The notes under the pieces: generated by a model
Seen by the model: the letters and a program-made list of their open reading frames with translations, nothing else
Told to the model about the DNA's origin: nothing
Database searches by the model: none
Made by a program: the position numbers and the translations under genes
In this document: piece after piece, positions 5,826 through 47,255 of the stretch
How the letters are laid out: each line of letters opens with the position of its first letter
Numbering within the stretch: the first letter of the stretch is position 1
Origin: Chromera velia
Lineage: Eukaryota; Sar; Chromeraceae
Assembly: GCA_018398765.1 (NCBI GenBank)
Contig: JAHBMJ010000018.1
Location: forward strand, 1-49,780
Direction: 5' to 3'
Length of the DNA: 49,780 bases

Positions 5826-7281
5826 TCAGTATTTGAGTGCGAGGAACGCCGCCACGCCCGCCTTGATCCACACGTCTTCCACCTGGTCAGATGGAACGTC
5901 GATGTACATCACGAAGTTCGTTGAGTGACCTGAAGGAAGGAGAGAGGTAGAGGAGGAATGCAGGGGGCACACGGACGAATGCAGATGTGCAGCATAGCGA
6001 CTCAACAGCGACGTGAGCGCCAAGACAGGCACGCGGGTAGGCTGGCAGAGATATGCAAAAAGGTAGGGAGGGAGCACGGAAAACGGAGACGGCTTTTGAA
6101 TGAATGGAACGGTGCCAAAATCGATAGCAAAGAAAGCTGTGGTGGTTAGGTTCTGCTGCCTGTATTTTCATTCATCTGGAGCCCTGAAGGACAAACTACC
6201 CCATTCCGTAGAATCCCATTAATTCCTTCACTGTGCTCACCAACCTGTAGTAGAAAGAGTCCCGCTCCTTGTGAGGACCTTGTATAGGGGGCAGTTGTAG
6301 TTTTTGTCTTTCGGGGGCACTCTGTCGAGTTCAGGGATCAGCCAGACGACAGGCATCTCCTCATAGAGAACCTTTGGCATCGATACGCCCTGCACAAACA
6401 GATGCACCCAACAGAAGATGATCCAATCACTTGGTACGCACGGTGGAGAAAAGACAAGCAAAGATGGATCGCGAGATAGAGAACGACGAACACAACCACA
6501 CACGCATAAATGAAGTGTTTGCTGACTGACCAGCATGTGCGTCTTCTCACACCACCTCGCCCCCTCAATGTAGAACCCGAAGACGTAACAACCGTCGATG
6601 GGCTTCTCCTTGATGGCCTCCACGGTGAGTGTGTCCATGAAACGGAAGTCGAACGAGAGCTTGTCCACCGCGTACCTGCACAAGCAACGCCAAATTCCGC
6701 GAACGATTTATCACACGTGCATCTTACAACTCCTGTGGCATCCCTAATGTGTTCACGAGTTGCTTCTGAGTCTGTATTGAAAGGAAGATTGCATCAAACG
6801 AAACAGGTGCGGGAGGTAGAAGGAGAAAGTATGTGTCTGTTTTTTTTCGCAGCCTTCTTCCCGGTGAGTCTGCAAGAGATTTCGTTTAGCTCTACTTCCA
6901 CACCACATAGGCAATTTTGTTTTGTTTGTTTCTTCCTCAACCTGTGACCGACTTGTTCTTTCTTGCAAAGTTCTGTAGCGTTCCCGTAAGGAATGCTTGG
7001 GGAAAGAAGAGGCCGGACATCCAGAAGGCAGGGGGGGTGCCTCCCTCAATCCACTTATGAAGGAATTTGACCCTGTCGTTGAGGTCGTTGATCCATGACT
7101 TCAACGGCTTCAGAGAGAGGAACCCTTTCTTGCTCCAGTTAGTCGGCACGTGGTTGTCGAACATGGACTGTCCCATCTTCTCCAGGTCCTCGCTCATGAC
7201 CACCAAACCCTTCAGAGCCTTCTTGAATTCCTTCAAGCTGCTGTGCATCTCACCCAATAGACGGTTGTACCGAATCACCTC

Positions 7282-7317
<36 letters not shown>

Positions 7318-8793
7318 TCCAAGGGGAGGGAAATCATTCAGACAAACACAGGCGCGGTCTGGATACATGGAGGCAAGTCATGAGAGCAAGAAAGGGGCTG
7401 CCTCTCCATGTATGCAGGCAGCCGTTGCAAAAGGACTGTCCTTTCAGGGAGCAACGCAAGCCCAAATACTCACACACCACACTCGGAAAGCTCCCGTCCC
7501 ACCAACCCGCCCACCTGCACGAGCACGGTGTTGATGGACTCCTCATAAGATGTCGGGTACTTCTCTTGAATCTCAAAAAGGACGAAGAGCTTCGGCGTCT
7601 GCTCCTCCAGCATGTCCGCCATCTCGCTCATCACGTCTTCTCGGGATTTCCCTCCGGACCCTCCGCCTCCAGAGCCCATCGCGAGCATGCCGTCAAGCAA
7701 AAACTGCAAATGCAAACAAAAAGGATGCATCGGATTCTTACGCTGTGAGATGAGAACAGCGGATACGGATTCAACGGCGGATTTTGTCAACGATAAATGA
7801 ATTAAAGTAGACACACGAACAGATTGAAGGGAGTCTGTCAAGATACGAACAGCCAGAAAAAGACCACCGTGAGAACAGAAGGAGGAATACCAGCGACGGC
7901 AAAAATGATTTTGATATTCCATGCACCGAACATAGACCCCTCGACCCCCCCAACCGCACCAACGCACCGTGGCTTCATTCTGTGCGAAGGTGATGTTTGC
8001 GTTTTCATGCAGACCGAAGACCTCTGGCTGGGGCACGAGGGGCAGTTTCTTGATGTACTCGATGAATCCCTCCTTGTCCTCGGCCTCCGGACAGAAGTAG
8101 CTGCCGGACTCGGAGAATTTGTACCCGCTTCCCTGCACGTACAGTCACGGATAGAGGCGGGTGAATGGAGAGACGGATCGAGACAGAGGGACTCAAAATT
8201 CCATGCACGAGCAAATGGACTCATGCGCATTGTGTCCATCCTTGTCCAGGCAGAAAATTGTGCATTTTTCCGACCGATCACAAAGGCATGTCGGCCTGAC
8301 CTGCTCCACAAGGGTGGGGTTCATGTAGGTCTTCAAGATGTATTGGATCAGTCTCTTGTCCTTGTCGTCCGTCACACGCCCACCGTAGTTGATCTGTGCA
8401 CCGATGTAGTTCAGCACCTGCACCAAATTAAAAAGCAGCAAGAGATTACACAGTCAGAGCCCGTAGGAACTCACAAATAGGTGATTTACCCTTTCCAATC
8501 AAGCGAAGAGAAAAAGGGAGAGGCAGTAAATCAAGTAAACGGAGCCTGAAAAAGTGCTATGTAAAACTACGAATTTTCAAACTGCAGAGGACAAACTTGC
8601 GAGGCGCCTGCCGATGTGAACAGCTGGGCAGGAATGCGGACGGACTTTGTAAGGAATGTAGTCGTAGTTGTCGAGGAAAAGCTTCAGCTGTCTCTGCGAC
8701 ACGATCAGATCCTCCTTTGCAAACTCGTAGGCAATGTTCCATCCTGAAAAAACAGGAGGAGAGAAAAAGGCAAACGTCAGACTTCAGAAAGAG

Positions 8794-8831
<38 letters not shown>

Positions 8832-10167
8832 AGAGAAAGAGAAAGAGAAAGAGAGAATTAGAATTGGGAAGAGCACATGTCCAATTCGCTGAAAGCTCCA
8901 CCTGTCTCCTCGCTGCCTGTGAAGCAGACAGCTCAGAGGTGTTCCTATCTCTAGCTAACAAATAATCCTTGCATCTCTTTTCTCTAGCCATGAGACTCGT
9001 GCCGATAGGTGTGTTCTGCTAGCCATCTGCTTACCAATGGGTCCATACTTCCTTCTGTCCTGCACGATGGCGTGGAAGAAGCAGAATCCGAAGAGGAGTC
9101 TCGTGTATGCCTCCGGCTGGCTGCAATCTGTGATCTGTTTGTCGTTCATCTGCTCGTACGACCTTCCCAGGTTCGCCCTGAGTCCCTTCGGAGGTTCGTT
9201 GGTCATCTTCACACCGTTCTGGAGGACCGCCACAGGGAAGGTCTTCGCAGGCATCGACGTCAACCAGAGACGGAAGTCGCGGTGGACCTGCAGGCGCAAA
9301 CACACGGTGCAAGAATTAAGGGGCGGGCCACACAGGGAGGAGTGGACGACCAGAAACAGAGTTGCGATTTTGGAAGCAAAAGACAGGAAGGACCTTTTTG
9401 CAGCTGGAGGAAGGCCGGTGAGGCTAGAAGAAAGTAACAGAAGCGCAAGAAAGACGCAAATCCAAGCAAACACCCGGGAAAGGGAAGGCAGGAGACATGT
9501 ATACAGACCTACCTGCTCAGGAGAGAGCGACTCGACGATTCTTTCCAGTTCTGTCATCCAAGACGCCGCCAAGTGACAGTTCTGCAAAAGAACCCAGGCT
9601 CCTCTGGAGCACCCGTCCTCAATCATCCTCTGTGCCTTCTTTCCCTGACCCTGTCCGAGGGAGATGGACGTCAGCTTGTCGTTCTTTGCCATATTCATCT
9701 CCTCAGCAAACGCCTGGATATCGCTAACAGGATCGGAACCTGACGAGAGAATGAGGATCAGAGGTGTCAAGTTGGTGCTGTCTTTGTAGGATTTGGCCAG
9801 ATCAAAACTTGGAGGGTCCACGAATCTCTCTCCGACGGTGTCGATGACGAACTGGATGATTCCCTCCACGAGTCTGTCCATTCGAATTGTTCGGAGGAAG
9901 CACAGCCGTTGCAGTCCCTTCAGCTTTCCCTCCCATTCCCCAGGGAAGGGTTCCTTGTGGGCCTCCACGGCGTCGAAGATCCTCCTGAAGTCCTGACTGT
10001 GGGAGATCACGTAGTCGTCTAGACCTCTGAAGGCAGGCAGAGAGGACAGCAGAACCATTTCTCCCCACTCCCTTGCTGTCAGCCACTCGGTCGGATTCGG
10101 TTTGTCCGGGGGGGGCTCGAGGACCGTCCCTGTGTTGAGGAAACGGAACTCCGCTGGGTCTACCTGC

Positions 10168-10198
<31 letters not shown>

Positions 10199-13100
10199 GA
10201 TGCAGGACACAAAAAGGGGGCAGTCGGGTGAGGGGAGCACGCTTGCAGCCCACATGAGAATTGGAGTTAGTGCGAAGATTCAGCCGTTCAGATTCATAAG
10301 TGTTGAGAAAAGGCAGGGAGGGGGGAAAACTAGGAGAGACCGGTTTGGAGGTTGAGTCATGCATTTTGCGTGGTCGAGAAATAAAGCACCCGCAAAACTT
10401 ATCGTTCGAAGCGTGAATATGTTCATGTTGCGGTCTTTGGGAGAAAGAAGGAGAACCTTGAGACCCCTTTTCTTGATGTGGGCATCGAAAGAGACGGACA
10501 AGACTTTGGAGAGAGGGTCACAGACTGACTGACTGACCTTATTCTGTCCCATGAGCATTCTGATCGTCAGCGCGAAGGAGAAGAGCGTCTTGTGCTTCTC
10601 AAACAGGGACCTGAACGAAGGCAAAGAAAGGCACAGAAAGGAGACTCGTTTTAGTGAAAGAGGTCGTAAATCGAGGTAAAGGAAAGATAATCTTCCTTCC
10701 TTCTTTCGACGGCAAACCACAATGATGCTCAGACTGTGTTGGAAAGGTGAAATAGGACATCTATTTGCTTGTGCTCCTTTATGCCTGAGTGCGACGGCTC
10801 TTCCTCTTTACTGTAGTTCCCACAAGTCTACCTACCTGCAGACGTTCTCGTAGAGAAGGTACGTGAAATGATCTGAGAGGTTTTGCAGTCTCTCCTCTCT
10901 CTCTGCAGAGGGAGCCGCCTGATCGATACCCATGGAAAACAGGTTCTGGTACCACTGGAGAGAGTACTGATACATCGGGTCCAGGTTACAGAGCTCGATG
11001 ATGCAGAAGAAGAGGATCGCAGCTCGGAAGGCAACGGGACGGTAGGATTCTCTGCAATCAATACAAAGCCGCAAAAAGATCACTTGCGGTACAAAGAGAG
11101 AAGACAAACAAGGACAGCTGGTCGAAAGAAATAGACAGCGAAATGTACGCAAGAATCAGCGCATACAGAAAGTCATCAGATGGACTTATCCATTTTCCCA
11201 GACCAGAGAATGCTTGCCTACCTGACCGACTGGATGACTGACCGTGCCGTATCAATTTCCTTCTCCGTAATCTCCGCCTCTCGCACCTTCTCGTTGATCT
11301 CAATGGAGGTCTTTTTGGAAGCAGACAACGTGTTGATCAGCGTCTCGTCTTCCAAGATGTCTCCCTCTGCCTGGGAGAGGAGACGGAGAATCGTGTCCTC
11401 GAGGTCCTTCAAGTCGGCCTTCATCTTCGCGTTACTCTGCACCAGCGCGTTCTTCTTCTCCTCAAGGTCGGGGGCCTCCTTTGCCACCACCAGACCCAGC
11501 ATCTGGTCCTCTAGGCCTTGCGCAGTGATGGCAAAGTTCAGGAGGGTGACCTTCACCTGGATCTCTGGGGCGTAGTGGGGATTTGAGTAGGTCGTTGTCA
11601 TGAAGAACCTGAAGGAAAACAAGACAGGGAGACAAAAACCGGCTGACGTGAACATATGAAGGCAGAAGGTCAACCAGACTTTTAGTGAAAACGAAAAAAT
11701 CAACGGTAGTCCTCACACGGATGGGCTGGGATTTTGGAGGTCTTTGCCAGTGCACAGGAAAGAAAAATTTGCCTTTCTCATTCTCCTTTTGATCAAAGTA
11801 GGGATGCCCTGCTGACCTGAATGTGTCCGAGTAGGAGATGTTCTTGTCTCCCAATCTGATCACCCATGAGCCTCCGTCCTTGATTTTCTGTTGCAGGAGA
11901 ATGGGGTCAAGAGAGGGATCGAGGACCTCCCCGATGTTCTCCAAGAGGATCCATCGACCAAATTGAATCCCCAGTTCCAATTGCTTCATGTACCCAGGGT
12001 CTGAGAGTTTGATCACCTCTATTCCCTCAGGACTCATCTTCTTCCCAAGCTCCTTGATGTACCTGTTGGCCTGGTTCTGAGGATCGATCATCAGAGGCCA
12101 TCTGCGTGGAACAAAAAAGGAAAAAAGAAGGTTGACAGAGATAGGAGGCTTAATGTGCTCACTCACGCTTATTCCTCTCTTTTGGAGTCTAGTGCATGAA
12201 AAAAAGCGAGGTACAAAAAAAACAAGGTGATGCAGAGAGAAAAGCGTAAGATATGGAAATTCATCCCAACAGTGCGACAAACCAACCTTCGTGCCTTGTC
12301 GACCACAATACCGTTCTCGACTGAAAGGTTGTCTGAGGGGAGGCCGCACACGTTCCATTGTCGGATCTTCACAGGCTCTCCGAGGAACTTCAGCATCGTC
12401 ACCCCCTCAGAGTGGGGAATCTCCAGCCTCACCAGCTCTTCCCTCCAACTATCCTCCATGTCTGATCGGTAGGACGCAATGAAAGGACCTGCACAGACAG
12501 GGAAGAAAGAGTTGAAAGTGACCATTTCCTCTCTCTCATGTATGCGGAGAATTCAGCAAAAAGGGCGGCGAGAAGGATCCTGGGTGGATGCCTGACGTTG
12601 TTTCACCTAGGCGACAAGACGAGAAACAAAACAAATATCTTTCCAACACCCTTTTCCACTGACCAGCGTACGCGACCATTCCTGCAGAGACCAGTGAGTT
12701 CCCTGGGATGAGGACCATATCCTCCCCCAGTTCTTTGACCATCTGCGTCCATCTGGTCTTTTCTCCTCCGAGTCCTCCGATGAGCTTCTCTGCTCTGACG
12801 AGTTTGACCTGACAGTCCTCGATCTCTTTCGTGAGGTCGTCCTTCTTCTTGATCGAAGAGTTGTAGTCCGCCTCCAATTTCTCCAACTTGTCCACCACCG
12901 CCTGCAGTTTCGCCTTTGCGGCGTTCAACTTCTGCATCGTCACCTCGAGCTCCCCCTCGGCAATCTTCAGGGCTTGGCGCTTGGGCTCCACTTCCTGCGC
13001 AGACACACACAAAGACGCACATTTGGAAAGACATGAATTAAGGCACGTACATGAAGGGATGCAAAGACCAAAAGCCGAAAATGAGCGCCCGGCCATGGAG

Positions 13101-16100
13101 AGAGAGAGAGCTGTATTGTTGTCTGTTCCGCTATGGAGCTTGCCGTTCTGCATGCATGTGTCTGCGTCTCGGAAGGCTCACTGAAGCCGAAATCGAATAG
13201 CTATGATCAAAAAGGTGAATAATACACCATCTACCAAGGACAAAGGCCAAAAACCAATTTCATTGAATGCACGCCCATGCACTGACCCTGGCGACACCGT
13301 TGTAAGTGTGCATCGCCCGCACCCACATGCACATCGCCTCACAGGCCACCGAAGCTTTCTTGATGACTGCCGGCTGGAAGTCCTCCTTGTCGATGTACGG
13401 CCCGATCTTGGTTATGACGCTGTCGGGGATCTCGTCCTTCTCGTAGCCCATCAACTTCTCCAGAAGAAGCTTTGGGTCCTTGAGAAGTTTGGCCTGGGCA
13501 CTCTCCCAGTAGTCATCGATTTTCTTTCCGGGGTTGTCGGGGTCGTTCTTCTTTGTCGGTGCGACCTGAGGGGAGGAGAGAGACGTGCGCAGGGGACAAG
13601 AAGCAGAGGTGGTGACAATTGTTTTGGAGCCTTTATGCATTCTGTCTCGGTCACACTTCTATTGTACACCGTACACAGCATGGCTTCACACCCAATCTTG
13701 GAGAGCGCAGCTCAAAAAGACTTTTGGGACATGTGCAGATCAAAAGAATTCAGTCAACCGGCACTTGCTAGCATGCAGGAGAGTACAAAAGGTCAAAACA
13801 AAAGATGCACAAGTGTCAAAAAGGAAATCTGGTTTTACGGTCCACACAGATGGAAGCACAAGAAATCGGATGCGATTTGTGTACAGCTTTCTTGCTTGGG
13901 AGTCATGTCTGAATGCTCACAGACCGACCCGACCGACGGACCTGAAACATAATGCAGACTGCCTCCATGGTCAGACGCACACCAACAGGAGGTTTGCCGA
14001 GTGCTTTCACCTCTCGGATATGGTCGACCTTCAGACTCTTCAGACAGGCGACAGCTTCATCGAGGGCAGGGAGTGCCTTGTCCAGGTCTCTCTGTGCATC
14101 ATCCTTGATGGCCTGGGTGGCCTCTGCCTTGGTGGCTGCCTCGGACTCTTCCACAGCGACTGTGCCCTTGACGACTTCAGCATCCGCTTTATCCTTCTCG
14201 ATTTGAACCATCTGTACCTCCACGGCTTTCTGCGTCTTTTCAAGCTCAGGCTGCATGTTCTGAATCTTGATTTTCATTGCCTCCACGTCTCGCTCTGCAG
14301 CTGCGAGTTTGTCGAGACCGTTCTGGAACCTGTGCTGTTGCGTGGAGATCTCCTTTCTCTTCAGGGACAGGATATTTCGGAACGTCGAGAGAAGCTCCAG
14401 AAACGAGGTCGGCGTTACGTACACGTGCCTGCAAGGGCGAAGAGGTAACGCACACAATGGTATTTTTGTTCATGCGCAAAAGTGAGTACAAAACACTTCT
14501 GCCCACTCCGCTGACATCCAGGCATGTCCCTGCACAATCTATTCCTTCCGACTAACGGGTTTCCTGCGGAGCGGTTCCTCATTTCTTAGCGACGGAAGCA
14601 AAAGGAGGAATGGGGGAAGTCCGACAGAATCAAAAGGAATGGTAACAAAGAGTGGACAGAAAATGCTTCAACTTGTCGGATGTCACTGGCACCACCATCT
14701 TTTCTCTCCTACCTTCCCCTTGCCCCTTTCGCCCATTCATACCTTCTCTGATCACTCTTGTACTTCACTGCAGAATGCTCCACTGTCTGATGGATCGTCT
14801 TGAAAAGGTTCAAAACGCCCTCGAGCTTTGGAAGCTGGAGGTCCACACCCTGCGTGAGCTGTTGCTTGGCAACTGAGTACAGTGCTTCTGCTGGCCACTC
14901 CGAGAACCAATCGATGGTGCAACAGTTGACAAGAGACGGGAACATTCGGAGACGGGTTCTGAACATCTCGCCCAAAGGAGACATGGCCAGAATCATGTGG
15001 AGGTTCGATTTGACTCTCTTCAGGTAGGAAGAGAAGATGTTCGTCTTCGTTGGTTGAAGTCCGGCTGCCACGCAGAGAGGGCGGCATGCTGTGATGATGT
15101 TGTCCATGTCCTCGTTCTTGTACAGATTTGGGATGTCTCCCGAATTCAAAATGTTGTTGATGTCTTCCAACATGGTTTCTCTCACAATCTGCAGGCGTAA
15201 GCCCAAAACAGAAATTTGTGTGAAGAGACAAAACAACAGGATCTCCGAAAGTGACAGAAAAATTACCTGAGATGAAGACAGACTGTATGAAATCAGGCTA
15301 CCTTTACACATGCGACAAAGGAAATCGTTGCTCATTTCCGCGTTCTTTCCCGATCCCTTTTTATTGAACTGACCTGTGTGTCGACGAAAACAAAGGAGGT
15401 GATCTTGTCCTCCACACCGCACTTCAACAGCACACTCTTCAGATCGTCTCTCCACTCCGAAGGTCCGTAGGACTTCGTGACTTCAATCTGGAAGATCGCC
15501 GAGTCCATCAGATGGGATGCCAACCTGGAGAGAGACTGTCGGCCCGACCCACCCACACCCAGTAGAAGACAGTTCCCAGAAGGCTGACGGAGCACTCTGC
15601 AAATTCGAGAGACGTGCTCACATGCGTCGAGGAACATGACCAGTGGCATCTGGACTGCGGACATCGAGTTGTAGTCCTCCAATCCTTCCTCGATCGTCGT
15701 CTTCATCTTCGGCATGTCTGTGATTTCTTCATACAGCTTGTTCTCGCCCTGTTGGAGGAAATCACCGAAGATGAGTCGTTCGTGGATGAACACTTTCTTT
15801 TCTGCTTCCTCAATCAGTCCCGCCTCGGAGAAATGCCGTTTGCACATCTCCAGCAGGAGGTCCTTCAGCCATCCCCTGTCCTTGTCGTCAATCAGACGAT
15901 CTCCAAAAACACGGGAGCACTCGTGGACCCACCCACGCAGGACGCCGTCAGGGGCCGTGATGGATTTTGGCTTCAGAGAGCAGACGCCTTGGAAGACCTT
16001 CCAGATGTCTCGAAGGTTGAACGTGTAGTGACTCTTCGAGGGGGTTGGCAGAAGTTCCCTCAAAATCGTCTGGAAAACTTCCAACGTCGACGCAACCAGA

Positions 16101-19100
16101 GCCTGACTTAGTTTCTGCAAAACGAAAGAAAGGGAACAAGGGGGGACATCATGTACTGTGATTTTAGGACATTTGCACACAAACATAGTGTCACTCCAAC
16201 AATTGTCCCTGCCGTCTAGAACAACAGGAAGACCGTGAGACGGCGATGCAATTAACAAGGGTGGTACAAATGACGAGGATGCAAGGCTCAAGTCCATTCA
16301 ACTTCACGTGACTTTCTCCCTTCTCTTTCTCTCTTGCCCACCATGACCAACCTGGACATTTTCAGGGAAAGTCTGGAAGAAGTAATTGCACATCGTCGAG
16401 AAGATGGTCATGATCGCGGCGTCACTGATGTCGCAATAGGCGAGCACATTGTAGTGTCTCACAAGTCTGTTGGTGATGAACGTGCGCCCGCCCCCAGGGG
16501 GTCCCATTGCTGCGAGCATCTGGATGTCCACGATCTCCCTGAAGGACAGCTCCTTTCGGTCATACCTGCATGCACTCTCTCATGCATTCATTGCAAATTT
16601 GGATGAATTCAACAAAAGACGGAGCGGAGCAGGTTGGGGGACAAGCAGCAAGACACTTACAGGTAGGCAGACGGACATATAAACAAACAATTAGAGAGGA
16701 CACACACAGAGACACAGGGACACAGATGGAAGGATCTACGACTGACTGACCATCCCCCGTAGTCGAACCACTGTCTGAGAAGCTCCAGAGGTGGCTGAGC
16801 TCCGTACTCTTCCTTCTTCGGCATGTTCAGGTCATCCACGAACACCACGAACACCTTTCCGACCGGAGGCCCGAAGACACCCTTTCTCCTCTTCTCCATC
16901 TTTGCATCCAGCATGTCCTGCATTCATTCACTCAAGGAGAAGGGGAAAAGTAAACAATGACTAGAAAGATTTCTTGCGATTGCTGCAAAACCTTGTCGAA
17001 CAGAGGAGTGGGCGAAGAAACGTCCAAAACGGCCACGAGCTAGCAATTTCTTCACTACCTCAATGAACACCTTCTTTCCCGGGCACATTTTCCTCTTGCG
17101 TGAACTTTGCCACAGTGCATACAGGCTTATCGAAAAACGGTTTTCAAGCCGTGTGATGCAGTCACCAAAAATACGAGTACTTTGACGTCCGGACCTGAGT
17201 CTGGTTCTCGGACGTCTGGGCGGAGAAGGTCACATTCACGCTCTGGTACTTATCAGGTGCGCCCCGAGCGAGCCACTCCTCGACGTTGACCGTCTTTCCT
17301 GTACCTGTGGGACCAGGCATCAGGCAGTGGAAACCGTTCTTGAGGAGAGTGGTGAAGATGAAAGAATTTCGGATGGAGTCCTGGGTGGGGACCATGATGC
17401 CCTCGTAAGTCGCGTTGTTGGGAACAGAGTACGCCCCCCCGACGTCGTTCCATGTCGACCAGCTGCCTCCGTCCTCCATGGAGTAACAGAAGTCGTACAG
17501 AGACGCCGTGCCCTCAGCCACACCAGGGATGGTGACCTTGAGAGAGTCTTGAGTCTTCATTCTTTCCAAAATATGGGCATTCAGCTTCTTTCTCTCGGGC
17601 TCTGAATGCAGAAAAACAGAGAGAGGCAAGATTAAGATCACTGGATGAATGATGTGAAGTGAGACTCGTTCAAGGCATAGACACTGTGAAGTGGACTTCA
17701 CAGACAAAATTTTTCATTTTTCTAGATGCCGTCCCCTTTTGCGTGTGTTTATAGACAACCCGAAACACCATCTGTACGAGTCCCACAGAGATTTCACCAA
17801 CAATTCGGTTCTTTGTGTTTTCTTTCTTTCATGCCGACTGGCTGACCGAGGGTGGTTGCTCCCACAGACCACATGAGCGCAAAGAGGAAGATGTTGGGAA
17901 TGTGCTTGGGAATTTCCTCAATTTCTTCCTTGGTCGGGGGTTTTCTCTCTGGAGAGATTTTGAATCTGTTCAAGAAACAGTCCATCAGTCTCAGACAAGA
18001 CGCACAGAGGTTGTTGTCTCGGGTCGGCGTCACCTGCAATCAGTCAAGCGTTCGGCGTCGGCACAATCGTAACGGCAGTGATTGCGGTCGAAGTGATGCT
18101 GGATTCTGGAGCAGGAAGGAACGAAAACAGGGGATGAAGTCACACTCGTGTGTGTCATAAAAGACAGAGATACGCTGATGGAAGCAATTTGCAAGCACAG
18201 CCTACAGTATGAGAAACAGCCGCTGACGCGGTTATGCTGCTCCATGAGGATCACATGGTTGCATGTTCTGCCCTTCCCTTCTAACCTCTTTTGAGTTTCT
18301 CCGCACGAAGGTGATAGCGTCCCCGATGAAGTACATTCCAAGCTCCTTCAACTTGGCTTTGACTTTGTCGTTGATTGCCGGAGCAAGTCTCTCCAGCCAG
18401 GAGTCGATCAGAGGCTCGAGCCCGAACGCTTCGGGCTCCATGTAGACCATTCCACATCGAGAGACTGTGGCTGGTGACGCCACTGTCAGATCCTCCACCT
18501 CGAACATCATCGTCATGTGGGCAGTCAGGGCAATGATCTCTCCCGAGTTCAGGCAGAGCTTCTTGTTATCGTCCAGCACCGTGTTCATGTTCTCAATCCA
18601 CACAGCGTCGACTGGCCCGTCAAACATCACCCAGTGCTTGTCGACTGACGTGTCTCGAGTGCACAGCCTGAGTGATTCAAAAGAGGAAGCCCAAGGAAAA
18701 AAAGATTCACGAAAGAGAGACAGAAAAACGGCATCAACTGCGATCAGAGAAGGAAAGGAAGAGAGACGGAGCCAGGCAGCATGGGAAAAAAAGATAAGAG
18801 TCAGGGGACGAATCAGCAAATGAGGTGTTCAGTGAACTTGATTGGCACCCTTTCTTTTCATGGCACTCTTTCTTTTCGAATCAGCAAATGACACTCTTTT
18901 CTTTTCATCGTCCGACCCTCCTCTAATCAACCTGTCTTACTCGATATGGAAGAGACTGACCTCATCAGTGCCGCCAAAACGCCGTCAGTCCACTCGTGTG
19001 TGATCTCGTCAAACATACCGTACAGCTGACCCATCTTGATGGACTTCGGGTTCAGGATGTGCGTGTGCACAGTCTCACACCCATTTGCGCCCTTCAGTTT

Positions 19101-22100
19101 CGTCATGGACTCCTGCAGAACTCTGTAGTTGCAGGTCTTCCCTCCTCCCGTCGGACCCACAAGCATGAGACCGTGACGGACCTGGCATGTGTCGAACAAC
19201 TGGATGACCTTCATGACGAAAGGATCGACAGGCTGAAGGTGCGAGTGGGTGCACCTCTCCCTGATCGTCACTTCCAGATCTCCGTAGTCAATTTGGGGTT
19301 TCTCTGTGTCTGGGAACAGATCCGAGATGATATTCTCGAACAGAGGGAGATCGTCCTTGAGGAATTTCGGGACGTTCACATCTCGGAGGGCGCGCAGGAG
19401 GAGCTGCTGCTCGTCCATGTCTGCACAGAGAGAGCATCCAAGACAGGGAAATGAGTTCTTCTCCCATGGGTTCTGCATAAATGACCTTAGCCAAACTAAA
19501 CCAAGATGTGTACAATGAGTATGAACAGGCAATCAAATAAAAAAACAGGCCCCTTGCACTTTCCACGTACAGATCGAAGTTGAGGAAAGGCAAAAGGCCC
19601 GTCTCTACTTGCACTGACTGACTGACTGACTGACTGACTCGGGAACTGTCGTTTCAGAAGACCGGCAGCGTTAATCACAGAACGCACGGCGCGCATTCCG
19701 TAATCGTAGTGATCTTGTGCGGACAGCTGCTCTGAGCAGAGCTTGAAGGTGGCCACTTTCTTCTTTGCGAGGTCACGCGCCGCCTCGAACCCGAATGAAT
19801 ACAGCATGATTTCTCCGATGAGAGCGTAGTCGGGAACCATCATCGCCATGGGACGGAAGAGAGCCTTCAAGTTATCGGGCAGCTCGGTACGTCCGGCGTA
19901 TCTGCAGGATCGGCGGAGGGCATTCAAGTGGGGCATGATGCGATTGCATGGATATGTGCAGCAGTTTAATTCAGATGCACAGAATAGGGTCAAAATAGAG
20001 TCCCTTTTCCGTCTTTTGCCTTCCAGGTAATGACGTTACCTTTCCTCATTCCATTCACTGCACAGCGTCTAGATAGACCACCAACATGTCTGATTTGACT
20101 GACGTCTGCATATTCAGTCAACCTCTGCTTCTGGCTTCCCCCCCCCCTCCCCCCCCAACTGCTGCAGTGACTGACCCTGGGTTCATGGTGATGAAGACGT
20201 TGAAGGTCGGGTACATTCTGATCAGAGAGCCCTCAAATTCGACCTCCGTCGAGTCGTTGAATCCCTTCAGCTTGTGCTTTGCGCCGAAGAGGATAAGCAG
20301 CTGTTGGGCAATCACCGACAACACCTGCAAAACACACACAAAAAGAGACAGGGACACGTTTGCTGTTTCTGAGAGAAGATTTTGCTACTTCACTTTTGTT
20401 TCGAAGATTTTTCGCTTTGCAAGGACTTTGCCAATTTATACTCCGACTTCCTCTCTCTCGCCCGCCGCTTTTCCCATCCTTTCCCCCTCACCCCCACCTC
20501 AACTGTTCCCCCTGACCGACCTCAATGTTGATACGGTTGAACTCATCGAAGCACACCCAGGCGCCGCTGCTTGCAAGGCCCTTGAAGAATTTGCCCACCA
20601 TGATGTAGTCCATCATATCTGAGCAGTTGAACACCACGCACTGTCTTGCGAGTGCCTTTGCAAGATCCTTGGTGGTCTCGGTCTTTCCTGTTCCTGCGGG
20701 GCCTGCCGGGGCCCCTCCGAGGTTCAGCTGCTGGGCACCCATCAGGGTGATGTAGCACATGTCCGTCAGAGGCGTAATCACCAGACGCATGGTGTTGCCC
20801 AGGTACTCGTACCCATACGGGAAGTTTGTCTGCAGCATAGGTCGTATGAAGATCCAGCAAGAGTGTTACCGCGGAAGACGGTTGTGAATGGAGGACGCAA
20901 CGCACGAATTTTGTGTTTTAAGGAAGTCGACCCTTCCATTTCTCCTCTCGCTCGAACACAATGAACAATAGACAGACTTAGAATTTGTCGCTTCAACTGT
21001 GTTTGCTATGTTCTTCTTTCTTTAGTCCCCCCCTTCCATGGCTTTTGTTTGTGCGTGAACGGTTGTAATCCGACCCTCCCTCTCTGACCTGCACGCACTG
21101 GCACCAGCAGTCGTCGTCTCTCCAGTAGTACCGCAGCTGGGAGATCCACTCGAAGGAGTCGGTCGTCCTCACGTCCTCCAGGACAAGCTTCTCCACAACG
21201 TCCTTGGCGTGCACGTCAATCACAATCAGGGCACCGACAGTGATGCTCTCCATCTTAGCGAGACCTTCTCGGACGAGGGCGACCTGCGCGATGAAAGGGG
21301 GGATCCATTTCGTCATTTGTGTTGCTTGTAATATGGAACAAAAGGTATTCAAGAAGCACATGTGTCGCTTTCTGCTCTGACTGTTCATGGAGTGCACACC
21401 AGCGATAGGCAGACATCAGCAGTAGAGTTGTGAGTGTTTCAAAAATCGGTGGTACAGAAAAAAGGGCAACTGAGAAGGAGTGAATTTAGATTTGGGCTTG
21501 TCTGACGGCTTTGTGTCTACTCATCGGTCTGTGTCTGTCGGAACGGCTGAATGATTAAATGACCCACTGACTTCTTTGTTAGTCATACAAACGACTGCTT
21601 AGCTGACCATATCCATCAGTTGGTCCTTCAAGAAGTCGAAGTACTTCTTCACCTCGTGGCCGTCGATGGCTTCCTCGACCTCCGAAGTCCAGTGGACCTG
21701 CGAGCCGTTCAGGACGCACTGGCCAGGATGGCACAGGACCCACTTCCGTCTGGGCTTGGTGGGGTAGTCCTGGATTGATTTGTCCAGAACCTCCCTGATG
21801 CCCATCTTCATCGCGTTCTCCGTGTCTGTCATCCAGATCTGTGAGCAGACAGGCAAGTAGGCAGGGACGGAAGCGACAGATATTCGAGGAAAAAGCGGAA
21901 CAGAAAACGACAACAGAAAACACACACAGAGGGCCACAGATGCAGATTATCATCTCGAGCAGAAACAGAGATTCCACATGGGAAAGGGTACTGAGCCCCC
22001 CGTTGAACTTGAAGAAAGAGAAACGACGGAGAGTGAATTGTACTGGTAAAGTCGACATCAAGTTGCTTGAGCCTGCTGAGCACAACGTACCTCCACATTT

Positions 22101-27258: not shown

Positions 27259-27296
<38 letters not shown>

Positions 27297-27965
27297 GCAT
27301 CATGAATCGCACCACGTTGAGGTATTTCTTCAATTTGCCGAACTCGTACGTCTCCTTGTTTGTCTCCTGCAGGCACAAGAAAAGAAACGGGGGAGAGATG
27401 GTTTCACTTCATTTCAAAACGTTGCCTGATAAAAATGTGGAACTGCGCATCGAAGCGCCAGAGCATTGATTGCCCGAAATGGTCAGGCAGCTTATCCATA
27501 TCAAACATGGCCGCCGTCCAATGCAAATTCTGTCAGAGCCTCCAACGTCTCTTCCTTATTTTCTCCGTTCTTTTTTCTCCTCACCAACTGCCCTGGAGAA
27601 AACCTCAGTGAAGAACGAAAGGCGCAAAGGAAGCTCAACGAATCAAGCTCACAAACCGACAAAAACACAACCAACAAGACAAAGAGACGAAGACAAAAAT
27701 AGAGGCAGAAAAAAAAGCCGGACCCGTCGAACCTACCTGCATGTTGAACCATCCTCTTCCCACGTTCTCGAAATGCCTCACGATCAGCCTCTGCACCTGT
27801 TGACTCCACGTGTCCTTCAGTGCGTACTGTGCCTGGCTGATGGCCGTCTTCTCGATCTGTCTGTACTCATCCAGACGGAGAGGCTGCAGACGATGCGGAA
27901 GCACAATCGATTTAATCCATGTGGACGCGCTGCAAAGGATTGGGCCTACCGGCACTGGGCTCACC

Positions 27966-28025
<60 letters not shown>

Positions 28026-31000: not shown

Positions 31001-31368
31001 TCTCAGAAAACACAGCAACAACAATTAAGCTGAGTGACAGATCGACTGACCATCTGTTCTCATCGAATGAAGGGTCTGAGTAGTTGATTCCTCGAACTGA
31101 GAGAAGGTGCTGGATGTCCTGACTTTGAAACCATTTCTTCTTTCTTTCCACCACCACCTTTCTTGGAGCCTTCCCGGGTGCCTGGTCAAAGGGCTCGATG
31201 ACCTTCGGGTCCACAGGCGCAACGTCTGCCTGAGCCTCCTTCCCCAGAGTGTTGCTGAAGTCTCTTTTATTGGGGGAAAAAGAGGTGGACCTCGGTGTTG
31301 CGTGTGCTTTCAAAGACTGCAGGTTCCGTGCCGATGTGGGTCCTTGGATCGCTTGCTGCACACACACA

Positions 31369-31405
<37 letters not shown>

Positions 31406-32045
31406 ATACACTCATATACACACACGCTAGCACGAACGCACACGCACAGGTCAAAGGTCTGACAGACGCTCGCAAGAAACTTTCACCCGCAGACAGGCGA
31501 GTTCCAGCAACCAGCCAGGAACAATCAGAGGGGTGACGGCCCCGACAGGATGCTCAAACGCCTTCTGGCACTTCACACTGTGTGAGAGTTGCTGTGCCTT
31601 GAAAAGAAGAGAGGACAAGTGAGTCAGTACAAGCAGAGCAGGAGTTAGTCAATGAGTCAGTCAATCAGTCAGTCAGTCAGCCAGCCATAGTCAAACTCCC
31701 GATCCCGCAGGCATGCAGGCACAGCGAACTCAAGAAGACTGGTCAGGCGAGCACGTTGGCACGCAAGCAGAAGCCCAAGCAGGCATGAAAATAGATTGCA
31801 GACATGCAGAGGGAAGGAAGGCGACCCAGACACGTCCCAACAGACACTTCTGATTTGTAGACGGACAGATGGACAGACAGGCTGAGCGAGGGACTAAAGT
31901 CACGAACCTGAACTTCTTCAATTCCGTTGGGTCTGAGAACTTCTGAGAAGACGCCTCGTTGACGGGTTGGAGAGGAGGCGGTTGACCGCATCTTGCCGGG
32001 GCTCGGGTTCCGGGAGGGAACCAGGGAGGCCCCCTGGGATGCCAT
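5826..32045 (-). CDS. DNAH1: Axonemal inner-arm dynein heavy chain, DNAH1 type; 53 exons
   Basis: This is the ATP-driven motor subunit of a single-headed inner dynein arm, which moves along doublet microtubules in flagella. Fifty-three exons join in phase into 12,594 nt, or 4,197 residues, close to the family length of about 4,200. All landmarks are present: tail, linker, six AAA modules, a stalk with microtubule-binding tip, and a C-terminal domain ending STTGHSTNF...LALKY. The DNAH1 call rests on the tail signature RTPEEW, then RLQLLF-AEDP, then YVDNMPTD, which I recall from that subgroup. DNAH3/7/12 are the alternatives. All 52 donors are GT with G at position +5. Introns split as 30 phase 0, 6 phase 1 and 16 phase 2. 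The gene appears intact. Exon 1 starts at an ATG at 32045; an upstream non-coding exon cannot be excluded. Exon coordinates are given with the domain entries. Confidence 0.95.
7285..7316. repeat. (CA)n microsatellite at a dynein splice acceptor
   Basis: On the coding (minus) strand this is a TG run leading directly into the TGCAG acceptor of exon 50 (first base 7281). Confidence 0.95.
8786..8855. repeat. GA/GAAA-rich microsatellite upstream of exon 46
   Basis: On the minus strand this is a 70-nt CT/CTTT tract shortly before the acceptor of dynein exon 46 (8743), extending its pyrimidine tract. Confidence 0.95.
9513..11051 (-). other. Dynein AAA6 (exons 42-44)
   Basis: Exons: 11051-10836, 10610-10538, 10163-9513. 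Exon 42 has the hydrophobic [10 protein letters not shown] segment and YQYSLQWY. Exon 44 covers the [14 protein letters not shown] segment, the [16 protein letters not shown] segment and [12 protein letters not shown], all characteristic of AAA6. No nucleotide-binding motif is expected or seen. Confidence 0.92.
10165..10199. repeat. (CAGA)n microsatellite at a dynein splice acceptor
   Basis: On the minus strand a CTGT array runs straight into CTGCAG, the acceptor of exon 44 (first base 10163). Confidence 0.95.
11222..12488 (-). other. Dynein AAA5 and buttress (exons 39-41)
   Basis: Exons: 12488-12287, 12101-11817, 11608-11222. [17 protein letters not shown] spans the exon 39/40 junction and marks AAA5. 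[14 protein letters not shown] follows. Exon 41 begins with [15 protein letters not shown] and then carries a long charged coiled coil, the buttress or strut that braces the stalk. AAA5 has no P-loop, as expected. Confidence 0.9.
12664..14428 (-). other. Dynein stalk and microtubule-binding domain (exons 36-38)
   Basis: Exon 36 (14428-13942) completes AAA4 and encodes the outgoing coiled coil, with heptad-like Lys/Glu/Ala-rich sequence to about residue 2850. Exon 37 (13565-13287; residues 2876-2968) encodes the globular tip, including the [20 protein letters not shown] segment typical of dynein tips. Exon 38 (12994-12664) starts with the returning coiled coil [17 protein letters not shown] and enters AAA5. 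The tip exon is 279 nt and phase 0 at both ends, so it could be skipped without breaking the frame. Confidence 0.9.
14743..16114 (-). other. Dynein AAA4 (exons 34-35)
   Basis: Exons: 16114-15374 (the longest in the gene) and 15188-14743. The P-loop [13 protein letters not shown] is at 15559-15533 and has Arg-Gln in place of Lys-Thr/Ser, as is usual for axonemal AAA4. Walker B is FVFVDTQ at the end of exon 34. [13 protein letters not shown] and the [10 protein letters not shown] segment are in exon 35. Confidence 0.93.
16352..17601 (-). other. Dynein AAA3, regulatory ATPase site (exons 31-33)
   Basis: Exons: 17601-17195, 16917-16751, 16565-16352. Walker A GPTGTGKT is at 17314-17291 (about residues 2151-2158). 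Walker B is VFVDDLNMP in exon 32, followed by [12 protein letters not shown]. Exon 33 carries AMGPPGGGR with TNR, the expected arginine-containing motif. Both nucleotide motifs are intact, so the regulatory site is probably functional. Confidence 0.93.
17847..19420 (-). other. Dynein AAA2 (exons 28-30)
   Basis: Exons: 19420-18961, 18667-18286, 18033-17847. The module opens with [19 protein letters not shown] across the exon 27/28 junction. Walker A GPTGGGKT is at 19157-19134 (about residues 1800-1807). Exon 29 holds [17 protein letters not shown] and the [16 protein letters not shown] segment. This module normally binds nucleotide structurally rather than cycling it. Confidence 0.93.
19613..19638. 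repeat. (ACTG)n microsatellite at a dynein splice donor
   Basis: On the minus strand, exon 27 ends at 19639 and the intron opens with about six tandem copies of GTCA, so the 5' splice site is the first unit of the repeat. Confidence 0.95.
19639..20829 (-). other. Dynein AAA1, main ATPase site (exons 25-27)
   Basis: Exons: 20829-20521, 20324-20176, 19901-19639. Walker A is GPAGTGKT at 20703-20680 (about residues 1514-1521), and Walker B is VCFDEFNRI near the end of exon 25. The ITMNPG segment ends exon 26, and [12 protein letters not shown] opens exon 27. Every catalytic residue expected of the primary hydrolysis site is present, so the motor should be active. Confidence 0.95.
21089..23791 (-). 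other. Dynein linker, residues about 981-1471 (exons 19-24)
   Basis: The linker is the lever that swings across the AAA ring during the power stroke. Exons: 23791-23615, 23410-23150, 22951-22847, 22594-22091, 21838-21608, 21283-21089. All junctions are phase 0. Family landmarks are [12 protein letters not shown] in exon 19, a [15 protein letters not shown] segment in exon 22, a conserved PGQ..L...VHWT segment in exon 23, and [11 protein letters not shown] closing exon 24 just before AAA1. Confidence 0.92.
24760..24821. repeat. (CTCA)n microsatellite at a dynein splice acceptor
   Basis: On the minus strand a GTGA array ends at the ATGCAG acceptor of exon 17 (first base 24753). Confidence 0.95.
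26069..26123. repeat. (TCAA)n microsatellite in a dynein intron
   Basis: An interrupted TCAA array lies just upstream, on the coding strand, of the exon 14 acceptor (first base 26057). Confidence 0.9.
27195..27294. repeat. (CA)n microsatellite at a dynein splice donor
   Basis: A 100-nt nearly pure CA tract. On the minus strand, exon 11 ends at 27295 with CAG and the intron is a TG repeat from its first base, giving donor GTGTGT. Confidence 0.95.
27969..28025. repeat. (TG)n microsatellite in a dynein intron
   Basis: A TG tract, CA on the coding strand, inside the intron between exons 9 and 10. Confidence 0.95.
31359..31404. repeat. (CA)n(CT)n microsatellite at a dynein splice acceptor
   Basis: On the minus strand a GA tract then a TG tract leads into the GCAG acceptor of exon 2 (first base 31355). 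The purine-rich tract replaces the usual pyrimidine tract. Confidence 0.95.
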
Positions 32046-32867
32046 GCTTTGTTCTTTTTGTGGTTCTTCTTACTGGATTGAGCGGGGCAAATGGGTTTAT
32101 CCCGCAGGTGTGGTGATCAATCTTACAAGCCAGACTGTGTTACTGCGGATGTCCGTGTCCAGTGCTTCTGCTTAGGCTCAGATGTTTCGAGTGTCTTTTT
32201 CGGAACCTGTGCACAGGTAGACTGCACACAGATCGGAGCTCTTCTGCGCGTGAATCAGATTTCCTTGAGTTGTCTGCTTACTTCACCGTCAATGGAAGGA
32301 CCAACTTGAGTCGGCCTCGTCAATTCCCGCCACTCACTGCACGCACTGGAGGACACCTGCCATGCAGACACAGGACTGTGCATGTGTGTATATATATATA
32401 TATGCACGCGTATATATGCACGCGAAAAAAAAATCTGTTAATTCAAAACCAATACTGAGAGTGAGAAAGAAGCGTATCGATACAGAGTGCCCCGGCATTG
32501 ATACGAAATTGGATGACGCAGCGGGCCCGCGGCCGCATGCGCATGCACGCGATATGCACGCGCGGGACCGCGTTGGCGCGGCCGGCCGGGGTCCTAGCTT
32601 GGGCCATGCATGGAGGGTGTTGCAAGTGCCTCGCCATGGCTCGCCTCCCTATATATAGCTCTCGCGAAAGATTTTGCACAAAACCCACGCACCAATTTAA
32701 AATCCACCTGTGTTTGTAGCTTTCGCGACAAGATTGGTGTTCAGTGCTGGTAGGAAGCACAAGTCTGGTTGTTTCATTCGAGTCTCGGGTTGTTTAAGTA
32801 TCCTGACTCTACTGTCTGTTTAGTTGTCTTCGGGTTTTCCATTCCCTTTTTGAATCTTTCTTCCAAG
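32046..32867. promoter_or_regulatory. Divergent promoter region, dynein and secreted-protein genes
   Basis: The two flanking genes start back to back here. TATATATGCACGCG occurs twice in tandem at 32397-32424, and its core ATATGCACGCG recurs at 32552-32562. 32521-32600 is a GC-rich island with the palindromes GCGGGCCCGC, GGCCGGCC and tandem GCATGC (32535-32546). A TATA-like TATATATA lies at 32650-32657, about 210 bp before the plus-strand ATG. TCGCGA occurs twice after it. The elements are plain in the sequence; their function is inferred. Confidence 0.45.
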
Positions 32868-38191: not shown

Positions 38192-38199
38192 GTACTAGG
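38192..38199. repeat. Target site duplication, left copy (GTACTAGG)
   Basis: This 8-bp GTACTAGG abuts the CAGGGTTGC terminus at 38200. It is identical to 39709-39716 on the other side of the element, the duplication length typical of hAT insertion. Confidence 0.88.
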
Positions 38200-39708: not shown

Positions 39709-39716
39709 GTACTAGG
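39709..39716. repeat. Target site duplication, right copy (GTACTAGG)
   Basis: Identical to 38192-38199 and flush with the right terminus of the hAT-type element. Confidence 0.88.
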
Positions 39717-39996
39717 AAAATAGTAAGAACCTAGGTAGGAAGTTACTAGAAACTTGAATATTAAGTTAAAATATTTTAATTCATTAATTTCTAATTAATT
39801 GCAATATTATTATATATATATATATAATGAATAATGAATTTAATTATACATAATTAGTTAAAAGTTTAAAGTTCTGCGTTTAAAAAAGAAAAGAAAAAAA
39901 TTTGAATTAAAGCCGTGCTTGCACTCGCTATATGGTTGTATGAATTGAAATGTTTATGCTTTACTGAGTGAAATTGGAGGTTGATGATTTGGTTTT
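39717..39996. other. AT-rich 3' flank of the centrin-like gene
   Basis: Mostly A/T, with a TATATATA run near 39812. There is no coding signal on either strand. It lies between the hAT element and the stop codon of the centrin-like gene. Confidence 0.5.
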
Positions 39997-45169: not shown

Positions 45170-45206
<37 letters not shown>

Positions 45207-47255
45207 GGCTGTTTATCAAAATCACGCGTGAGACATTACATCTCCCCAAAGGTGTGGGGGTTTCCCCCTTTTTTTCTGAACAGGTGTGTTTTTTTTTCTT
45301 TTCTTTTTTCTTCTTTCCTTGTGTGATTTCTCCTCCCTGATCGCCTATGCAGGTTCATTGCCGTTACGCTGCTCTTTGTGCGTCTCTGCCAAGAGCTCCA
45401 GTCCCACCTGAGGGGCCTCCTCGTTCTTGATCGGGAGGAGAGAAAGAAATGGAGCGTCCGAATCGTCGTGCGCATTTGGGGGTGTATCATTTATCCCTTC
45501 CTTCTCTTCTCAGTCGGTGTCGCACAGATCATGCTGGCAGACGCGAAGCACGTGATTCTGTCCAGTCTGACAGTCGCGTTCATCGCTGGCATTGACAATC
45601 TTCTTGTGAACGGCCTCCGATTGCATTCCGGAGAGGATGCAGTGAAAGCGATGCTAGAGGTTACCTGCATCCCGGGTGTCCACATTGAATCTGCAAAGAC
45701 GGAGATGGAGAGAGGATCGGACTCCTCTGTGTCGTCGGCAGACGCAGAGAGGTCAGAGACCACCCTCATGACAAAAACTAGGGCCGAAAGAATCCTTGAA
45801 GACCTGCGAGACGACGAACCCGATATTCGTCTGAGTGCCCTGTTGGGCATTTTGGATTTTGAGGAGATTTGCGATAACATCCCCGCAGTCACTGCCGGTT
45901 TCACAGAAGAACAGAAGAAGGCTTACAAGAGCTCGTGGAGAACATACGGAGACCCATACGAAAAGAGCGATGTCCCCCCAACCCAATATGAGGCTGCTCT
46001 GCGTTACGGCGCGTATTTAGCAAAGCAGAAACTCTTTGAGAAGATCGCAGAGAGAGTGAAAAAGATCCGTTCCGACAGCCTGGCGACCACCAAACTGACG
46101 GCATGCTTTCTCCTCGCTGTCGCCATCACCCCCTTTGTGTTCACTGTCTTTGACTGGTGTGGCGTTGACATACCGAGTGAAACCGCACGAAGCGGCTATG
46201 ATGAGGTTGACATCCTCACTTTTTTCATGGTCTTTTCAGCCTCGATGAGCGTGTTGCCCATCAGTCAGAAGGCCAAGGCCGTTGCTGAGGAGCTAGTCGA
46301 ATCCTATGAAGACAGGGAGGAGGAAATGACGTGCTGTGAAAAGATCAAGTGGGTTTCCGACCAGACACTCAACCTGGCTCTCATGCCATTTCTCCTCATT
46401 CCCCTCATTTGTCCTCTCATTCTCGCTGCAGCGATTTTGAGTGCCAACACCCTGGTCACTGAAGTGACTGCATGGGTTCTTCTTTTGTTTTTAGACTATG
46501 TTGCTGTGCAGATTCTGGGTGACGGGCTTGGTGAGGTGTTTGGAGAGAAGGATGTGGAGAGTCAAACCGAGTCGGGTCTCGATCTGATCCCTCTGGCTTT
46601 CCACTTTGTGATTGTTCACCTTGTCCTTGTGCTCCTCTATATAGGGGCACTAGGGCACTCGAGACATTTCGATGTCAGCAGAGGGGAAGAGCGACTGACA
46701 GTCGAGAAGCAGTGGGGGAAGCTGACGGGAGTCCTGTGCGTCACAGGGCTTACCCTAGGGGCGCTTCTCCTGAGGCTCCTAGTTGAGTGCTGCTCCCGGT
46801 CTGGGAAGAGCACCTCCAAAATCGACCAGCAGAGAGAAGAGGGGGATAGAGAGGAGTCCCTGATTTCCGATCTAGACGATGAAGAGGATGAGGGCACAAA
46901 GGGGTGTACTGCCAAGGGGTTCTTTGACGCCCTGCCCCATTCGATCCTCACGGTCCTCCTGGCCCCTATCTGGCCCCTTGCCTTTCTCATCCTTTGCTGT
47001 ACTGAGGTTGTCATCTGCTTGTGTGTTTGCACAGGTTGCCAGAAGAAGAAAGAGTCGGAAGATAGCGACAGTTCGATTAGCTCCCTTGAAGATGAATCCG
47101 AAGAGGAAGAGGAGACTGAGCTGATGGAGTCAGGCATGTCAAAGGGAAGCGCAGAGGGCAGACAGGACTCCGCTGGAGTTGTGTCAGGGTCAGCAAACGG
47201 AGGAGAGATGGGGGAGAAGGCCCCCCTTCTGTCAACCGGCTCTGGGGGTGCCTGA
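43887..47255 (+). CDS. MSP-domain multi-pass membrane protein with acidic tail; three exons
   Basis: Exons 43887-44464, 44864-45019 and 45353-47255 join in phase to 878 residues (donors GTCAGT and GTCGGT). Residues about 10-125 look like a major-sperm-protein/VAP-type beta sandwich: [20 protein letters not shown], then [12 protein letters not shown]. Such domains can dock proteins at membranes. A first membrane segment lies near 177-195. The long third exon adds about ten more, including [26 protein letters not shown] (two parts of a recurrent algal membrane motif), a large Glu/Asp-rich loop, and a Cys-rich last helix. The tail is acidic and Ser-rich ([17 protein letters not shown]). The start follows a possible 5' intron acceptor. 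It may be an uncharacterised transporter or channel. No family is assigned to the membrane part. Confidence 0.8.
45172..45204. repeat. (TG)n microsatellite in intron 2 of the MSP-domain gene
   Basis: A TG tract in the middle of the intron between 45019 and 45353, not at a splice site. Confidence 0.95.

Follow-up and report, generated by a model that had tools for sequence, protein, structure and literature searches.

Cytosine at donor position +3 in introns of Chromera velia: candidate U6-suited 5' splice sites beside canonical U1 and U6 sequences

The window analysed here is a stretch of 49,780 nucleotides of Chromera velia (contig JAHBMJ010000018.1 of assembly GCA_018398765.1, here contig C18) and forms part of a 177.8 Mb genome of 4040 contigs. 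Most of its introns lie in an axonemal dynein heavy chain gene, which among solved proteins is closest to Chlamydomonas DHC2 and DNAH1, and a further four were placed in a centrin-like gene. The subject of this work is the 5' splice site (donor) of these introns, in which the third base (+3), a purine in the usual eukaryotic consensus, is most often C. The two genes are as follows:

5826..32200 (ends approximate), minus strand: axonemal dynein heavy chain gene carrying most of the introns; spliced alignment and hidden Markov model (HMM) models
about 40-42.4 kb, minus strand: centrin-like gene; aligned with a centrin sequence, 71/147 identical

Introns were predicted from the sequence with a protein-to-DNA spliced aligner which demands GT (or a penalised GC) and AG at the intron ends and gives zero weight to positions +3 to +6. 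Pieces of DNAH1 and DHC2 served as references for the window dynein, and pieces of human Prp8 (identity 508/624 and 1048/1291) for the Prp8 gene on contig C249. Dynein introns were kept if at least 4 of 10 residues were identical on both sides, which 20 of 27 passed and 7 failed. The Prp8 introns were exempt from this flank filter (the first one has 3/8 identical residues on its right side); 22 were placed and 21 kept after exclusion of one dubious GC intron. The best-supported set thus comprises 41 introns, 20 from the window dynein and 21 from Prp8. A larger set of 60 adds 19 window introns from an HMM blind at +3; from its 46 introns, two shorter than 100 nt and then 25 of 44 that overlapped homology introns had been left out. 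Restoring the seven filtered-out dynein introns gives 67 for the coupling tests.

Among the 41 best-supported introns, +3 is C in 25, A in 9, G in 5 and T in 2, and +4 is A in 21, G in 10, C in 9 and T in 1. Position +5 is G in all 41 and +6 is T in 34, with G at -1 in 35 and A at -2 in 26. The same +3 habit is present in both genes taken separately: the 27 homology introns of the window dynein have C 14, A 6, G 4 and T 3 (+5G in 26/27), and the 21 Prp8 introns C 12, A 4, G 4 and T 1 (+5G in 21/21). In the centrin-like gene C stands at +3 in three of four introns. An ab initio HMM retrained on the window dynein gave C+3 in 30/52 introns and +5G in 49/52 from a flat donor start, and 27/52 and 51/52 from a GTRAGT prior; held flat at +3 and +4, the model returned C+3 in 25/46.

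The initial annotation had claimed C at +3 in about 37 of 60 donors, G at +5 in every one and only two donors of the GTAAG type. The preference is borne out by homology placement (C in 26/48 of all homology-placed introns) and by the set of 60 (36/60); the earlier figure is right in kind and slightly high for the dynein alone (14/27 to 30/52). The demand for G at +5 likewise holds, in 59/60 of the larger set, and GTAAG-type donors are as rare as stated (1/41). A hand-picked set of 24 window HMM and four centrin introns had +5G in 28/28, which is a non-independent count on which no claim rests. We regard the C+3 excess as confirmed at the level of the placed sequences: it is present in two unlinked genes and is consistent with the genome-wide word counts given below. 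The window donors, all on the minus strand, are listed with their introns:

23144..23149, minus: GTACGT, intron 22952-23149; homology, kept
22841..22846, minus: GTAGGT, intron 22595-22846; homology, kept
21602..21607, minus: GTCAGC, intron 21284-21607; homology, kept
20515..20520, minus: GTCGGT, intron 20325-20520; homology, kept
20170..20175, minus: GTCAGT, intron 19902-20175; homology, kept
19633..19638, minus: GTCAGT within GTCAGTCAGTCAGTCA, intron 19421-19638; homology, kept
18955..18960, minus: GTCAGT, intron 18668-18960; homology, kept
18280..18285, minus: GTTAGA, intron 18034-18285; homology, kept
17189..17194, minus: GTCCGG, intron 16918-17194; homology, kept
16745..16750, minus: GTCAGT, intron 16566-16750; homology, kept
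11811..11816, minus: GTCAGC, intron 11609-11816; homology, kept
11237..11242, minus: GTCAGT, intron 11052-11242; homology, kept
10830..10835, minus: GTAGGT, intron 10611-10835; homology, kept
10532..10537, minus: GTCAGT within a GTCA repeat, intron 10164-10537; homology, kept
9507..9512, minus: GTAGGT, intron 9288-9512; homology, kept
9029..9034, minus: GTAAGC, sole GTAAG-type donor among the 41, intron 8744-9034; homology, kept
8640..8645, minus: GTCCGT, intron 8418-8645; homology, kept
7509..7514, minus: GTGGGC, intron 7282-7514; homology, kept
6947..6952, minus: GTCGGT, intron 6676-6952; homology, kept
6525..6530, minus: GTCAGT, intron 6390-6530; homology, kept
intron 42206-42357, minus: centrin-like gene, GTCAGT; centrin alignment
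intron 41407-42062, minus: centrin-like gene, GTCGGA; centrin alignment
intron 40705-41330, minus: centrin-like gene, GTCAGT; centrin alignment
intron 40084-40675, minus: centrin-like gene, GTTGGT; centrin alignment

These introns have the marks of the major, U2-type class. The GT...AG termini are built into the aligner, which picked GC twice (both placements dubious, the second of them excluded from another dynein gene), but +5G in 41/41 and C at -3 in 38/41 emerged without being demanded. A purine at +3 is found in only 14/41 donors, and U2-type membership stands nonetheless, the consensus not being a requirement. The acceptors read TGCAG (G at -4 in 33 and T at -5 in 36 of the 41), and the following exon has G as its first base in 33 and T as its second in 25.

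The C at +3 is coupled to the rest of the donor. In the set of 60, A follows at +4 in 25/36 C+3 donors vs 6/24 of the others (p=0.0013), and this coupling is firm: with the seven dropped introns restored it is 26/37 vs 6/30 (p=6e-5). Among the 41 introns, C accounts for 17/21 of the +4A donors, compared with a C share of 39% in GTNAG words from random loci. A moderate coupling exists to the exon side, where C+3 donors carry AG at -2/-1 less often (13/36 vs 19/24, p=0.0015), as well as G at -1 (26/36 vs 24/24, p=0.004) and A at -2 (18/36 vs 19/24, p=0.031). The AG deficit runs in the same direction in the homology (p=0.053) and the flat-HMM (p=0.020) subsets and persists over the 67 introns (14/37 vs 21/30, p=0.014). 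Two simpler accounts of the donor spelling were given up. The idea that GTAAGT is avoided for being too strong a U1 site seemed to be borne out by A at both +3 and +4 in 1/41 donors (Fisher p=0.009), but AA makes up just 1.8% of random GTNNGT words and the claim was dropped; avoidance of stop codons was set aside, since the TAG-bearing GTAGGT occurs in 4/41.

The initial annotation had proposed altered pairing of U1 or U6, or else heavy reliance on +5G. The genome encodes both a canonical U1 5' end and the ACAGA box of U6, as expected of a major spliceosome. One U1 passes the Rfam cut-off (79.3 bits) and starts AAACUUACCUGG, as does another, shorter copy; a third hit lacks a 5' end. The 5' region reads ACUUACCUG and thus places an ordinary U opposite +3, which makes C+3 a mismatch to U1. 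A whole-genome pattern search for a U1 variant with another base opposite +3 returned both canonical copies plus four sites with two mismatches, and none of these four has a U1 body; the pattern had seven reversed-control matches, and a very different U1 start would escape it. ACAGAG is kept in all seven U6 hits, one of which has U instead of A as the next base. Two U6 copies are divergent and perhaps pseudogenes (C3040:10684-10791 and C3674:55054-55155); the first has the sequence ACAGAGUAGAU, and in the second four bases are inserted after AGAUU and the usual 5' stem is missing. Changed U1 or U6 RNAs are not supported by these copies. Altered pairing may be right in another sense, as a shift in the RNA which the donors suit, because an unmodified U6 could give C+3 a Watson-Crick partner. 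Reliance on +5G is a fact of the donors but leaves the choice of C over other bases unexplained.

In published structures U6 G44 lies opposite +3, in a contact with A or G that is described as weak initially and firmer later; C would then be the Watson-Crick partner of G44. We favour, with a probability of roughly 0.4, the reading that these are ordinary major-spliceosome introns in which the intron-strong donor class would be written GUCAG instead of GURAG. The C+3 donors show the anti-correlation with exon-side AG that is a trait of the U6-type class, and the other donors have AG in 19/24; the AG//GU class combines such an AG with a free intronic side, yet +5G is not free in them. GURAG itself (A or G at +3, A at +4, G at +5) is present in just 3/41 donors, GTAAGC once and GTGAGT twice. 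A merely tolerated U1 mismatch would need better exon ends, and the opposite tendency is seen, which makes C+3 look like a strong intronic base.

A more specific proposal, which we put forward tentatively and hold as rather doubtful, is that the lineage re-optimised its donors for U6 over U1 with unaltered small nuclear RNAs (snRNAs), C+3 losing a U1 pair and gaining Watson-Crick pairing to the G in the ACAGAGA of U6; the choice would then fall mainly at the handover from U1 to U6, and phase-locked arrays at the intron ends, (GTCA)n-like past the donor and of TGNN units upstream of the acceptor, would let slippage re-create splice signals of this type. In the favoured reading itself, U1 would make the first contact, ordinary but weaker on account of the U opposite +3. 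The donor would then be passed to U6, where C+3 might form a Watson-Crick pair with the G in the ACAGAGA box, which is G44 in the human molecule, and the resulting helix would cover +2U and +3C, then +4A opposite the central A, and lastly +5G and +6U; beyond positions 42-44 of U6 we assume the numbering of this scheme. Standard pairs to U6 at +2, +3, +5 and +6 could form in 20/41 donors. Donors with A, G or T at +3 would make up a U5-type class which relies on exon-side AG and leaves +4 free. Tetranucleotide repeats would keep GTCN words common and supply ample C+3 material to retain.

Phase-locked arrays are evident at both ends of the 41 introns. Past the donor, GT recurs every four bases (+5 34, +9 17, +13 13, +17 7, +21 8, +25 7), with 0-5 introns at each off-phase position up to +28; upstream of the acceptor, TG does likewise (-5 31, -9 18, -13 11, -17 12, -21 15, -25 10), with 0-8 at each off-phase position up to -28. 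The in-phase and off-phase rates are 0.254 vs 0.043 for donor GT and 0.322 vs 0.079 for acceptor TG. In 26 further introns they are 0.154 vs 0.071 (p about 0.012) and 0.177 vs 0.090 (p about 0.014), the comparison omitting 2 of the 19 HMM introns. The donor array is barely above that of random GTNNGT words (p=0.045 at +9, or 0.005 without CT; later places not below 0.05), and the acceptor array of 29 acceptors exceeds that of random TGCAG words (p 5e-6 at -9 and 4e-7 at -21). We read the phase-locked ends as slippage that probably acts on selected end motifs. An introner origin was rejected, an all-against-all BLAST of the 41 introns having given two matches only, of 23-27 bases.

The same repeats supply the strongest competing account, a serious possibility although we do not expect it to hold, by which the splicing machinery hardly reads +3, recognition depends on +5G, +4 and the exon side, and C+3 mirrors how abundant GTCN tetranucleotide repeats are, these arising by slippage at intron starts. 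Period 4 is the commonest of periods 1 to 10 in the sampled loci (8-match windows), with 14.8 per kb as against 6.4 per kb for period 2, the runs of which also count in period 4, and each of the 33 classes of tandem tetranucleotide exceeds its order-3 expectation, by a factor of 1.7 to 15.5, in 156 kb of sampled loci. C makes up 24.4% of the intron interior vs 25/41 at +3 (p=7e-7), but in GTNNGT words of random loci, GTGTGT excluded, it already makes up 46% at that position, a far higher baseline, and since such words are supplied by repeats the excess is partly one of supply. Moreover, the base at +7 repeats that at +3 in 24/41 donors and C+3 drops to 5/17 where they differ, and an exact tandem tetramer starts 17/67 introns vs 2.8% in intron middles. 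Against a position that is hardly read stands T, found at +3 in 2/41 donors vs 18% of supply, which indicates that +3 is read. Donors without GT at +9 still have C in 10/19. Of the pairs at +3/+4, CA is 5.7% of the GTNNGT supply vs 14/34 donors, and CT, the commonest pair after GT, is 21% vs 1/34. Finally, the link of C+3 to weak exon ends survives removal of the exact tandem tetramer donors (n=43: AG p=0.014, -1G 0.021, +4A 0.015).

Recognition might still be led by U1 if a U1 pseudouridine, or a U1-bound protein of the U1C or LUC7 type, accepted C+3. In work on model duplexes, pseudouridine is reported to be able to stabilise pseudouridine-C pairs too, but a preference of this kind alone predicts no weaker exon ends in C+3 donors, and we consider it unlikely. 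That gene modelling misplaced the introns and so produced C+3 artificially seems very improbable. HMM and homology agree on the donor in just 18/25 overlapping introns, and the flank filter favours C, which stands at +3 in 13/20 passing and 1/7 failing dynein introns. Yet Prp8, about 81% identical to human, fixes its junctions and has C+3 in 12/21, +5G and CAG acceptors appear undemanded, and expectation maximisation started from a GTRAGT prior still shifts to C. Word counts are, in addition, independent of gene models. Across both strands of the whole genome MAG|GTxAGT occurs 6672 times with C, 4063 with G, 1533 with A and 992 with T, these being words and not proven donors. When expectations are calculated from the sampled 156 kb with Markov models of order 2, 3 and 4, the C word shows the strongest enrichment of all (2.53, 3.40, 1.81; A 1.21, 2.71, 0.96; G 1.38, 2.41, 1.06; T 1.45, 1.56, 1.09).

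Several observations weigh against the reading of an intron-strong GUCAG class. The coupling tests are exploratory, several having been run on one small intron set; in the 41 homology introns alone -1G and -2A reach p=0.066 and 0.32, AG falling just short as given above, and with the dropped introns restored the -1G link is gone (27/37 vs 27/30, p=0.12). T+3 is disfavoured though able to wobble with G44, so that G44 alone fails to rank all four bases; the order C and A > G > T would fit U1 and U6 acting jointly. Two other dynein genes outside the window have C+3 in 2/5 introns. The reversed-pattern controls of MAG|GTxAGT (C 3227, G 3899, A 5764, T 2616) give word-to-control ratios of 2.07 for C, 1.04 for G, 0.27 for A and 0.38 for T, but such controls are poor measures. 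An HMM trained without supervision on 154 kb of random loci drifted and gave no C excess (18/87). A fixed-parameter codon HMM on random and RPB2-type loci placed 149 introns with no clear C excess after filters, C+3 being 12/39, 4/18 and 1/10 under rising filters; an overfitted coding-model HMM on the same kinds of loci was discarded, its loosest filter leaving 3/45 introns, all with G at +3. These ab initio models of other loci were noisy. The share of C+3 in the average gene of the genome is therefore uncertain. Donor placement and U6 pairing were, furthermore, both predicted from the letters of the DNA.

In animals and plants two donor classes, //GURAG (U6-type) and AG//GU (U5-type), are described with anti-correlated strengths (Parker et al. 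2022, PMC9803359; PMC11732430). The Chromera donors resemble this system in that intron-strong donors tend to weak exon ends and vice versa, and +4A and +5G mark the intron-strong class there (PMC9803359; PMC11732430). Unlike in that system, +3 of the intron-strong class is C in place of a purine, and nearly all donors of either group have G at +5. The C+3/+4A donors may thus work like the U6-type class without belonging to it. In Saccharomycotina yeasts a switch from +4A to +4U in donors accompanies loss of METTL16 and SNRNP27K, two proteins tied to +4A donors (PMC10581693). That switch is likewise a lineage-wide change at one donor position facing U6 ACAGA, but the Chromera case concerns C at +3, and domains of both protein families are encoded in the genome (SNRNP27K, one match of 87 bits; METTL16-type PF05971, two matches of 38.7 and 33.4 bits). 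Amoebophrya, a probable myzozoan relative, has introner elements and non-canonical introns (PMC7789003); odd intron ends and short boundary repeats are shared with it, whereas in Chromera GT-AG fits the placed introns, U1 is found and the introns are mutually dissimilar. No report of a GTCAGT-type donor consensus was found in the titles and abstract openings of the open literature, a search that left aside +3 usage in Chlamydomonas, fungi and other groups. The likeliest description is that of the two donor classes already known, with a new base at +3; this would agree with an unchanged U6, and the many repeats of the genome would feed it.

It is difficult to tell apart the shares of U1 and U6 in 5' splice site choice, since A or G at +3 matches U1 and is described as touching U6 only weakly. 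Common C+3 beside canonical-looking RNAs would separate them, as it has no standard U1 pair and a possible U6 pair. Many GTCAGT donors together with normal-looking snRNAs suggest that splicing favours a different pairing step here and offer a natural test of how cut sites are chosen. If the favoured reading is true, thousands of natural donors in one organism would be at hand for testing U6-led selection, and gene finders tuned to GTRAGT would misjudge the introns of this genome.

Two minor observations were made elsewhere in the genome. The motif CAGGTGAGT forms clusters, nine copies within 17 kb at C1:191288-208268 (minus strand) and three, about 136 bases apart, at C19:9308-9587 (minus strand); they may be tandem repeats or mark a single gene rich in GTGAGT donors. 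At C213:40358-41713 a bacterial-type RNA polymerase beta domain lies in 1.36 kb that is open but for eight in-frame TGA codons, and this is probably a plastid gene in which TGA is read as tryptophan.

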